Origin: Collinsella bouchesdurhonensis
GTDB lineage: Bacteria > Actinomycetota > Coriobacteriia > Coriobacteriales > Coriobacteriaceae
Assembly: GCF_900155365.1 (NCBI RefSeq)
Contig: NZ_LT699738.1
Coordinates: 45,025 to 109,024 of the forward strand
Direction of reading: 5' to 3'
Length of the DNA: 64,000 nt
Shown: positions 7,493 to 52,792 of the stretch, in pieces
Numbering within the stretch: position 1 is the stretch's first letter
Layout of the letters: each line of letters opens with the position of its first letter
Made by a program: the position numbers and the translations under genes
Notes under the pieces: generated by a model
The model's database searches: none
Told to the model about the DNA's origin: nothing
The model's input: only the letters and a program-made list of their open reading frames with translations

Positions 7493-8260
7493 ATGAATGC
7501 ACTTGAATGCAAGGCATACCTGGAGCGCATCGGCTACCAGGAAGAGCCACATACAGATAAGGATTGTCTGGAAAAGCTTATGGAGCTGCAGCTTCAAAGC
7601 GTTCCTTTTGAAAATTTGGAGGTCTTCAAGGAGAAGAGGGTTCCCTCCCTCAAAACCGAGGACATCTTCCACAAAATCGTCCACCAAGAACGGGGCGGAT
7701 GCTGTTTTGAGCTGAACAAGATCTTCTACGAGCTCCTCAAGGGCCTGGGCTTTGACGTCACACCGCTTGCGATACGAATGCTGTGGAGCCCGGACGATTT
7801 TCGCCGCATCCTGCACAGGGCCACGATGGTTGTCTTGGAAGACGGTCCCTATTACTGCGACGTGGGCTACGGCGGTCCCGGTCCCCGGTATCCGGTCAAG
7901 CTGGAAGACGGCCTTCATACCGAGAAAAACGGCACCTTCCGCGTGACAATGGAGCCGCAGGGCACCAACGGGGAAATCCTGATGGAGCGGAAGCAGGACG
8001 GAGAGTATCGTCCCCTCATGAGCTTTACGCTGCACCCTGCGCAGGATGTCGATTTCGAAGTCCTTAACTACTACTGCTCGACCTCGCCGGACATGTGGCT
8101 TACGCAAAAAACGGCGGTCAGCATCAGCACACCTACAGGAAGCGTTGCCCTTACCGGAGACACGCTCACCATCCAGAAAGAAGACGGCAGCATAGAAAGC
8201 CACGTCTGCGATTCGCCAGAAACCGAGAAAACCTGGCTCAAGACCTATTTTGGACTGTAA
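7493..8260 (+). CDS. arylamine N-acetyltransferase
   Basis: This 255-residue NAT-family enzyme transfers acetyl from acetyl-CoA to arylamine or hydrazine groups through a Cys-His-Asp triad. The Cys lies in QERGGCCFELN (about residue 69), the His in RRILHRATMVV and the Asp in YYCDVGYGG. The N-terminal substrate-entry stretch VPFENLEVF is typical. A strong AAGGAGGAG site precedes the ATG. It stands alone, with its own terminator. In gut bacteria such enzymes act on 5-aminosalicylate and related drugs, but the natural substrate here is unknown. Confidence 0.93.
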   Translation: MNALECKAYLERIGYQEEPHTDKDCLEKLMELQLQSVPFENLEVFKEKRVPSLKTEDIFHKIVHQERGGCCFELNKIFYELLKGLGFDVTPLAIRMLWSPDDFRRILHRATMVVLEDGPYYCDVGYGGPGPRYPVKLEDGLHTEKNGTFRVTMEPQGTNGEILMERKQDGEYRPLMSFTLHPAQDVDFEVLNYYCSTSPDMWLTQKTAVSISTPTGSVALTGDTLTIQKEDGSIESHVCDSPETEKTWLKTYFGL

Positions 8261-8315: not shown

Positions 8316-8357
8316 GGAAAAGCAGGGGCCGCAACGGACATCCCGTTGCGGCCCCTG
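8316..8357 (-). terminator. terminator of the HTH-aminotransferase gene
   Basis: On the minus strand a 14-bp GC-rich hairpin (arms beginning CAGGGGCCGCAACG) is followed by CTTTTCC. It faces the plus-strand terminator of the convergent gene. Confidence 0.85.
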
Positions 8358-8383
8358 CCCCAAATAGACCGTCTTGCCCTGTA

Positions 8384-9943
8384 TTAGCTCTGACGATAAT
8401 GCGCGAAGAAATCGGCCAGGTCTTCCATCGACTCCTTGAGTACCTCCATGCGCGGCAGGTAGACGATACGGAAGTGGTCGGGCTCGCCCCAGTTAAAGCC
8501 GCCACCGCGGGTAATCAAGATCTTCTTCTGATGCAACAGGTCGAGCGCGAACTGCTCGTCATCCGTGATATTGAACTTCTTGACGTCCATCTTGGGGAAG
8601 ATATAGAACGCAGCCTTGGGCTTCACCGCCGTGATACCGTCGATGGCATTGAGCGCCTCGTACACGTAGTTGCGCTGCTCGTACACACGGCCGCCGGGAC
8701 GAATGTACTCGTTTACCGATTGGTAGCCGCCTAGCGCCGTCTGGACGATGGACTGCGCGGGCACGTTGGAGCACAGGCGCATGTTAGAGAGCATGTTGAT
8801 GCCCAGGATAAAATCCTTCATGCAGTCCTGGTTGCCGGAAAGCACCATCCAGCCCACACGGTAGCCGCAGACCATATGCGATTTGGAAAGACCGGAGTAG
8901 GTGACGCACGGCAGATCGGGTGCAAGCGAAGCGATGGAGATATGCTCGTAGCCATCCATGATCAGACGGTCGTAAATCTCATCCGCAAAAATCATGAGCT
9001 GATGCTTGCGGGCGATCTCGACGATGCCCTCCAAAATCTCTCGTGAATAGACAGCGCCCGTGGGATTGTTAGGGTTGATGACGACGATGGCCTTGGTGCG
9101 CTCGGTGACCTTCTTTTCCATATCCTCAAGGTCGGGGTTCCACTCGTTTTGCTCGTCGCAAATGTAGTGCACAGCGTTACCGCCGGCAAGCGTCACACAG
9201 GCAGTCCACAGCGGGTAGTCGGGCGAGGGAACGAGCACCTCGTCGCCATTGTCGATCAGCGCGTGCATAGAAAGCTGGATGAGCTCAGACACACCGTTGC
9301 CGGTATAGATATGCTTCATGTCCACGTTGGGGATATTGCGCAGCTGCGAATACTGCATGATCGCCTTGCGCGCCGAGAACAGGCCGCGCGAGTCGGAATA
9401 GCCCTCGCAGTCCGCCAGCTGCTGGCGCATGTCGAAGACAACCTCGTCGGGGGCGCGGAAACCAAAGGGCGCAGGGTTGCCGATGTTGAGCTTGAGGATG
9501 CGCGCACCATCGTCCTCCATACGCGCCGCCTCGTCGACCACGGGTCCGCGGACGTCGTACAAAACGTTATCGAGCTTATTTGATTTCTTGAACGTGCGCA
9601 TGGGTGCTCCCCCTGTTGTATGTGATGCGGAATTGCTGCGAATCGGTCGTGCTGGAGGCGCCGGGATCGAACCCGGCTTGGTAGCTCGTGCGGTATCGGG
9701 TCCCAGCCCCTCGCCTGTGGCGAGCCATTCCGCGTCCACCTCAAACACGGCGGCGAGCACGTCCATAACGTCTCGGCGCGGAATCGTCTTGCCGCTCACG
9801 TACTGGCTCACCTGGCTTTTCCCCAGATGCTTCCCGCGCGTTTGAGCCATGCGAATCACGTCCGCCTGCTTGGCGTCGCGCAGCTCCATCAGCTGTTTCA
9901 AGCGTTGTGCAAACGTTGCCTGGGCCACAGGGTCCTCTTCCAC
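8384..9943 (-). CDS. HTH (XRE-type) domain fused to alanine-type aminotransferase
   Basis: The 519-residue frame starts at GTG 9943 behind GAGGAGG. Residues 10-75 form a Cro/CI-like helix-turn-helix (GKSQVSQYVSGKTIPRRDVM is the recognition part). After a Pro/Ser-rich linker, residues 115-519 are a PLP fold-type I aminotransferase of the AlaA/AspC class: NIGNPAPFGF, INPNNPTGAVYS, DEIYD, Schiff-base Lys in YSGLSKSHMVCGYRVGWMV. RefSeq-type annotations of the same architecture exist in bifidobacteria. Residue 115 is an ATG (9601) with its own GGGGGAG site 5 bases upstream, so a separate aminotransferase may also be made. Inverted repeats over the promoter suggest autoregulation, perhaps sensing an amino or keto acid. 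Confidence 0.92.
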   Translation of the reverse strand: MEEDPVAQATFAQRLKQLMELRDAKQADVIRMAQTRGKHLGKSQVSQYVSGKTIPRRDVMDVLAAVFEVDAEWLATGEGLGPDTARATKPGSIPAPPARPIRSNSASHTTGGAPMRTFKKSNKLDNVLYDVRGPVVDEAARMEDDGARILKLNIGNPAPFGFRAPDEVVFDMRQQLADCEGYSDSRGLFSARKAIMQYSQLRNIPNVDMKHIYTGNGVSELIQLSMHALIDNGDEVLVPSPDYPLWTACVTLAGGNAVHYICDEQNEWNPDLEDMEKKVTERTKAIVVINPNNPTGAVYSREILEGIVEIARKHQLMIFADEIYDRLIMDGYEHISIASLAPDLPCVTYSGLSKSHMVCGYRVGWMVLSGNQDCMKDFILGINMLSNMRLCSNVPAQSIVQTALGGYQSVNEYIRPGGRVYEQRNYVYEALNAIDGITAVKPKAAFYIFPKMDVKKFNITDDEQFALDLLHQKKILITRGGGFNWGEPDHFRIVYLPRMEVLKESMEDLADFFAHYRQS

Positions 9944-10048
9944 AGTTCAACCTCCTCTTAAATTGAACTTTTCAAGCTGCAGTGCATCTCAAAAGTTCAA
10001 TTTAGATGGCAGTATACGACCTGAACGAGAAAAAAGGTTCAATTTTGA
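9942..10048 (-). promoter_or_regulatory. operator region of the HTH-aminotransferase gene
   Basis: A perfect 14-bp inverted repeat (TAAATTGAACTTTT 9959-9972 and AAAAGTTCAATTTA 9991-10004) with an 18-base spacer lies just upstream of the ribosome-binding site. A third half-site (GGTTCAATTTT) sits at 10036-10046, and TTGAACT overlaps the start codon (9943-9949). A minus-strand TATACT (10011-10016) is a possible -10. The likely binder is the HTH domain of the same gene. Confidence 0.7.
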
Positions 10049-25394: not shown

Positions 25395-25435
25395 GGACAC
25401 CGCGTGCCAAACCCGGCCATCGGCACGCGGTGTCC
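25395..25435 (+). terminator. 14-bp hairpin after the acyltransferase gene
   Basis: Perfect arms GGACACCGCGTGCC and GGCACGCGGTGTCC with a 13-base loop. It lacks a T tract, so it may work as a Rho-assisted stop or a transcript-stabilising stem. Confidence 0.55.
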
Positions 25436-52672: not shown

Positions 52673-52734
52673 CCAAGGGCACACGAGCAAAAGAAGCGCA
52701 CGCAGACAGGCTGCCGTCTCCATTGTCGGCATTT

Positions 52735-52792
52735 GCAGCAAAAAGTCCCATTTGGAACGCCCATGGGTCCTCCAAGTGGGACTTTTTGCTGC
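52735..52792. terminator. 22-bp hairpin after ysxC
   Basis: Arms of 22 bases (52735-52756, starting GCAGCAAAAAGTCCCA, and 52771-52792) match at 21 positions around ACGCCCATGGGTCC. Its A- and T-tracts in the stem are as in the hairpin at 46973. Probably a terminator for ysxC. Confidence 0.7.

Follow-up and report, generated by a model that had tools for sequence, protein, structure and literature searches.

A predicted one-gene feedback circuit in fusions of a CI-type HTH with an AlaA-type aminotransferase

We propose that a gene of Collinsella bouchesdurhonensis that joins an XRE-type HTH to an AlaA-type aminotransferase is a single-gene negative-feedback circuit with a second, HTH-free product; for this explanation as a whole we would put the probability at roughly 80%. 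The fused protein itself is very probably an autorepressor with a single target, because its TTGAAC half-sites track the fusion, are phased with the DNA helix and form an arrangement unique in the genome, and because a relative of its HTH binds AGTTCA. The gene lies in a 64,000-nucleotide stretch of the genome, which we refer to as the window.

In the mechanism that we have in mind, the full-length protein would dimerise through its AlaA-type domain (fold-type-I transaminases are dimers) and set two CI-like HTHs on TTGAAC(T) pairs that lie on the same side of the double helix over the promoter, the transcription start and the leader. Flexible linkers would let it use pairs in direct, inverted or everted arrangement that are whole turns apart, and the protein, once abundant, would block RNA polymerase at its own gene, as the positions of the sites suggest. 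From the same mRNA, an internal ribosome-binding site and ATG would direct synthesis of the aminotransferase without the HTH, supplying enzyme, and this shorter form could dilute the repressor via mixed dimers. A more detailed version, to which we would give somewhat less than an even chance, has a captured phage-type CI HTH on a transaminase of central metabolism repressing its own promoter through the phased array, with the HTH-free enzyme titrating the repressor via mixed dimers and the ratio of the two ribosome-binding sites setting the enzyme level.

The fusion protein and its linker

The HTH and the aminotransferase domain are both present and both conserved (Table 1). The window protein matches the Pfam family Aminotran_1_2 (class I/II aminotransferases) with an E-value of 2e-51, and E. 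coli AlaA (PDB 4cvq) aligns end to end with residues 115-518 (E 7e-166); K354, the active-site lysine of the GLSKS motif, is invariant among the fusions. Given the end-to-end alignment and the invariant lysine we predict transaminase activity, the domain probably being an active glutamate-pyruvate transaminase. The HTH_31 score of the window protein is 24.7 bits, slightly below the Pfam cut-off of 27, and the HTH_3 scores of orthologues are 34.1, 33.3 and 26.6 bits against a curated cut-off of 23, which places the domain in the XRE (Cro/CI-type) family. Pfam gave no GntR match for the HTH; the profiles and the predicted fold are those of XRE. While the AlphaFold model of the whole protein, made from an alignment of 13 rows, is poor, with a pLDDT below 50 in the linker, the HTH modelled alone is good (mean pLDDT 92).

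Table 1. Features of the fusion gene and its upstream region (window coordinates)
Feature	Position	Strand	Basis or remark
Half-site 1, TTGAAC (within AAAATTGAACC), upstream promoter region	10037..10042	(-)	sequence, conserved in relatives
-10-like TATACT, kept in Collinsella relatives	10011..10016	(-)	sequence
Half-site 2, TTGAAC, inside arm 9991-10004, immediately 3' of -10	9995..10000	(-)	42 bp (4 turns) from half-site 1
Half-site 3, TTGAAC, opposite orientation, inside arm 9959-9972	9963..9968	(+)	32 bp (about 3 turns) from half-site 2
Shine-Dalgarno AGGAGG for full-length product	9951..9956	(-)	sequence
Half-site 4, TTGAAC only, between Shine-Dalgarno and GTG	9945..9950	(-)	least certain, off helical phase
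Fusion gene, XRE-type HTH and AlaA-type aminotransferase, 519 aa, GTG start 9943-9941	8387..9943, stop 8384-8386	(-)	ORF, domain matches, orthologues
HTH domain, residues ~8-83, five-helix XRE fold	9695..9922	(-)	structure model, sequence profile
Recognition helix KSQVSQYVS, residues 42-50		(-)	
Linker, variable, presumably flexible	9602..9694	(-)	length/composition among fusions, low pLDDT
Internal Shine-Dalgarno GGGGGAG	9607..9613	(-)	sequence, conserved among fusions
Internal start codon ATG, first residue of AlaA domain	9599..9601	(-)	conserved among fusions
AlaA-type aminotransferase domain, residues 115-519; also predicted separate 405-aa product	8387..9601	(-)	homology to 4cvq

Among the fusions the linker between HTH and enzyme is 12-101 aa long and rich in A, S, P, G and T, with a composition that is not conserved. 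This bears on the possibility that the autorepressor is gated by metabolites, the state of the substrate or of PLP (alanine, pyruvate, glutamate, PMP) altering DNA binding by analogy with MocR or PutA, in which case the circuit would report metabolite level as the original prediction supposed. The HTH is after all joined to a domain that aligns with AlaA along its whole length and keeps the active-site lysine; MocR proteins use an aminotransferase-like domain as a sensor, and the preference of PdxR for a given repeat geometry changes with PLP (PMC5320631). However, a linker so variable in length and composition argues against a conserved mechanical relay, and an internal start that uncouples the enzyme from the HTH suggests control of its level. 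We therefore consider metabolite gating rather unlikely; it would in any case extend our favoured explanation and not replace it in full. With a linker of 12-101 residues rich in Ala, Ser, Pro and Gly, feedback on protein concentration is a simpler reading than metabolite sensing.

Several other features of the region were recorded. Within the part of the gene that encodes the linker, at 9630-9700 on the (-) strand, lies GCCGGGTTCGATCCCGGCGCCTCCA, reminiscent of a tRNA T-arm or the 3' end of tmRNA; an RNA element of this kind was rejected, as ARAGORN and Rfam report no RNA gene there. Directly after the fusion gene, at 8322-8360, a strong perfect hairpin is probably a terminator. It lies between the fusion gene and a convergent neighbour (7493-8260) that is arylamine N-acetyltransferase-like (Acetyltransf_2), and the same positions give a sub-threshold Rfam match to ncr1175 on the (-) strand. 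Further perfect inverted repeats with arms of at least 14 bp are found in the window at 25395/25422, 46978/47009 and 52734-52780.

A predicted second start within the gene

The original prediction does not include an internal start. Yet where the AlaA domain begins, at most 12 codons from the conserved K[ST].KL motif, all 62 non-redundant fusions carry a start codon in frame, and in 60 of them it is ATG. It is preceded by a Shine-Dalgarno sequence of -6 kcal/mol or stronger in 53 of the 62, compared with 13% for other in-frame ATGs of the domain and 15% for linker positions, and its predicted strength is about that of the Shine-Dalgarno at the main start. P values for the internal start overstate certainty because the sequences are related, and we take the effect sizes as the evidence. 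The gene thus probably makes two proteins, a repressor-enzyme and an enzyme free of the HTH.

The internal Shine-Dalgarno and ATG might instead be an unused relic of the unfused gene: the ATG coincides exactly with the position at which alaA begins when unfused, and in L064 and a few other fusions a good site is missing. We find this improbable. Although linkers have become too different to be aligned, a strong Shine-Dalgarno has been kept in differing reading frames (AGG AGC, GGA GGA, GGA GAA), and where the ATG has been relocated (L056, L057, L138, L154, L157, L158 and L168) the Shine-Dalgarno has shifted with it. Its mean strength, moreover, exceeds what synonymous codons would give, with -7.6 kcal/mol observed versus -4.1 kcal/mol expected under synonymous recoding.

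The half-site array and what would bind it

The promoter region contains a perfect 14-bp inverted repeat with arms at 9959-9972 (TAAATTGAACTTTT) and 9991-10004 (AAAAGTTCAATTTA) and an 18-nt spacer. The original prediction, that this repeat and two further half-sites extend over the promoter, leader and start codon, is borne out in its coordinates, and perfect 14-bp inverted repeats were absent from all 40 Markov-shuffled windows. A promoter scan gave no match to a full sigma-70 consensus at the fusion gene, and the exact positions of the promoter and of RNA polymerase are for that reason inferred from the conserved TATACT. Sites placed over the -10, the start and the leader would fit repression.

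By chance, the window should contain 0.08 pairs of the form TTGAAC..GTTCAA no more than 30 bp apart; the entire genome of 1.88 Mb has a single one, at the fusion promoter. Direct half-site pairs elsewhere lie inside open frames or lack flanking A/T, and single WAATTGAAC matches are isolated and mostly within open frames. A regulon elsewhere in the genome was accordingly rejected. Across 18 other genomes the inverted pair is about as frequent as a control pattern with the sequence reversed, being somewhat commoner than the control in several Atopobiaceae-like and Eggerthellaceae-like genomes. The TTGAACAATCCGTTCAA pair recurs away from the fusion gene in two Collinsella genomes (G001:C1:882850 and G023:C1:2179155).

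Fusion orthologues were gathered by genome searches and come from Coriobacteriia and Clostridia, that is, from two phyla. TTGAAC is the commonest 6-mer upstream of 37 non-redundant fusions, at 4.08 per 200 bp, whereas its density is 0.18 ahead of 33 alaA genes without the fusion and 0.12 over the remainder of the same loci; these statistics count related genes as independent, so that P values are too small, and the effect sizes are large. Four of the six sites in the unfused set come from L071, which is really a fusion with an assembly gap. With 40 more loci, which brought in further Coriobacteriia, the set grows to 67 non-redundant fusion upstreams, with a mean of 4.2 TTGAAC and at least three copies in 62 of them; the half-site consensus is AAATTGAACTT. 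The same half-sites are thus found beside orthologous fusions, where the original prediction had proposed to look for them, and are nearly absent at unfused alaA genes. The prediction has in this way withstood its own refuting condition, a lack of half-site conservation at other fusion genes. A split of the fusion gene in Collinsella intestinalis (L071) was considered and rejected, the break being an assembly gap of N. In C. intestinalis (L071 and L169) an extra AAATTGAACC is present in the coding sequence near the end of the HTH and may be an additional operator.

In a tree of the aminotransferase domain the fusions form one well-supported clade, within which four unfused genes are nested (L074, L075, L093 and L151). 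These HTH-less genes have 0-1 copies of the half-site in non-coding sequence. A single origin of the fusion followed by loss of the HTH is the simplest reading, and more gains are also compatible with the tree.

The spacing of half-sites has peaks at about 10, 20-21, 31-32, 41-42 and 51-52 bp, whether a pair is direct, inverted or everted, with an additional 7-bp direct overlap. The best spacing period is 10.5 bp, with a power of 0.42, while none of 2000 jittered sets exceeded 0.175. In the window, half-sites 1 to 3 are separated by 42 and 32 bp and half-site 4 is off-phase. Sites that lie whole turns apart on the same side of the helix would fit a dimer with flexible arms.

Among solved structures, TP901-1 CI has in its N-terminal domain the closest relative of the HTH (Z 12.5 across 76 residues), with 434 Cro and P22 c2 also matched. 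A sequence profile of the HTH finds this domain too, at E 3e-16, the helix LSKSTLSQYV aligning with LGKSQVSQYV. In a study that includes gel shifts, phi13 CI binds operators with half-sites of the TP901-1 consensus, AGTTCAYR, and its affinity is low once this becomes AGTTGAYR (PMC8516035); the OL site of TP901-1 is GTTCATGAAACGTGAACT (PMC4941734). The half-site of the fusions, AGTTCAA (TTGAACT), agrees with AGTTCAYR at the sequence level over the first six letters, the core AGTTCA. This match was unplanned, since the fold search came after the motif had been fixed. The idea in the original prediction that the fusion controls itself through its own HTH thus gains support from the conservation of half-sites with the fusions and from the AGTTCA-binding nearest relative.

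Half-site and HTH helix sometimes seem to change together, which is suggestive only: L067-L069 have half-sites ATAAAC/GTAAAC and an altered helix, LSKSQMSQYLSGR, whereas L059 has half-sites altered to ATGAAC and an unaltered recognition helix. L067, L068 and L069 form a Lachnospiraceae clade and possibly represent a natural change of specificity.

Since XRE HTHs are common, some other regulator could bind the half-sites, with the fused HTH binding elsewhere or nowhere. However, in both phyla the sites go together with the fused HTH and become scarce in genes that lack it, the nearest characterised relative of that HTH binds AGTTCA, and the inverted pair is found nowhere else in the genome; given this co-occurrence and the relationship of the HTH, we regard binding by another regulator as very unlikely. 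Scarcely credible is a leader RNA hairpin that controls translation and involves no operator: the window leader does fold at -20.3 kcal/mol (z -2.6), ending beside the Shine-Dalgarno, but the hairpin arrangement is not conserved (all half-sites have the same orientation in 9 of the 67 upstreams, and a hairpin-capable pair is present in just 39), sites also lie 5' of the -10, their spacing tracks the DNA helix, and they accompany the HTH.

Comparison with known systems

If autorepression by the fusion is true, it would constitute a widespread family of trigger enzymes, with hosts that are common in the gut (Collinsella, Eggerthellaceae, Atopobiaceae and Lachnospiraceae), in which a phage-type repressor domain is tied to central nitrogen metabolism and one gene holds the entire feedback loop. 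It would also be a naturally occurring design by which an enzyme module limits itself. The letters of the operator, the rule for its spacing, the internal start and the cases of natural HTH loss have all been defined, which puts every part within reach of simple reporter or binding experiments.

Trigger enzymes are enzymes with a DNA-binding domain that regulate genes, for example PutA, NadR and BirA (PMC8249747). A mark of the class is that expression is adjusted to the availability of substrate; for the fusion the regulatory evidence concerns the operator. Like the fusion protein, these are enzymes bearing their own DNA-binding domain, and PutA also resembles it in that it appears to have one target region, which includes its own gene. 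NadR carries an XRE-type HTH, as does the fusion protein, and the DNA-binding domain of PutA is, unlike that of the fusion, a ribbon-helix-helix. While PutA responds to proline, the fusion contains an alanine-type transaminase and has a phased-array operator and a predicted second start for an HTH-free enzyme.

The CI proteins of TP901-1 and phi13 share with the fusion the HTH, the helix KSxxSQYV, the core AGTTCA, a flexible linker to an oligomerising domain and several operators (PMC4941734, PMC8516035); in the fusion a metabolic enzyme replaces the CI C-terminal domain, and the spacing and orientation of the array are varied. E. coli AlaA (4cvq) corresponds to the enzyme domain from end to end and is without an HTH. 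The gene-within-gene rpnL/rpnS yields long and short products in one frame by way of an internal ribosome-binding site (PMC10327210), as we predict for the fusion gene; here, however, the short product would be an enzyme and the long one an enzyme-repressor, and the two are no toxin-antitoxin pair. Our literature search, limited to open-licence papers, found no published XRE-aminotransferase fusion. Each component has precedents; their combination, a CI-like HTH on a full AlaA with a phased operator array and a conserved second start, did not turn up in the open-licence literature searched and is apparently undescribed.

The overall layout is that of MocR/GabR/PdxR, in which an N-terminal DNA-binding domain is followed by a linker and a fold-type-I aminotransferase-like domain, and which use direct and inverted repeats as operators (PMC5320631). 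The fusion shares this order of parts and both kinds of repeat. However, MocR proteins combine a GntR winged helix with a sensory aminotransferase-like domain, whereas the fusion combines an XRE/CI-type HTH with an AlaA-like transaminase. Judged by domain make-up, the fusion is of independent origin, and would, if our reading is true, represent a second, separate route besides MocR by which a transaminase has been united with a DNA-binding domain.
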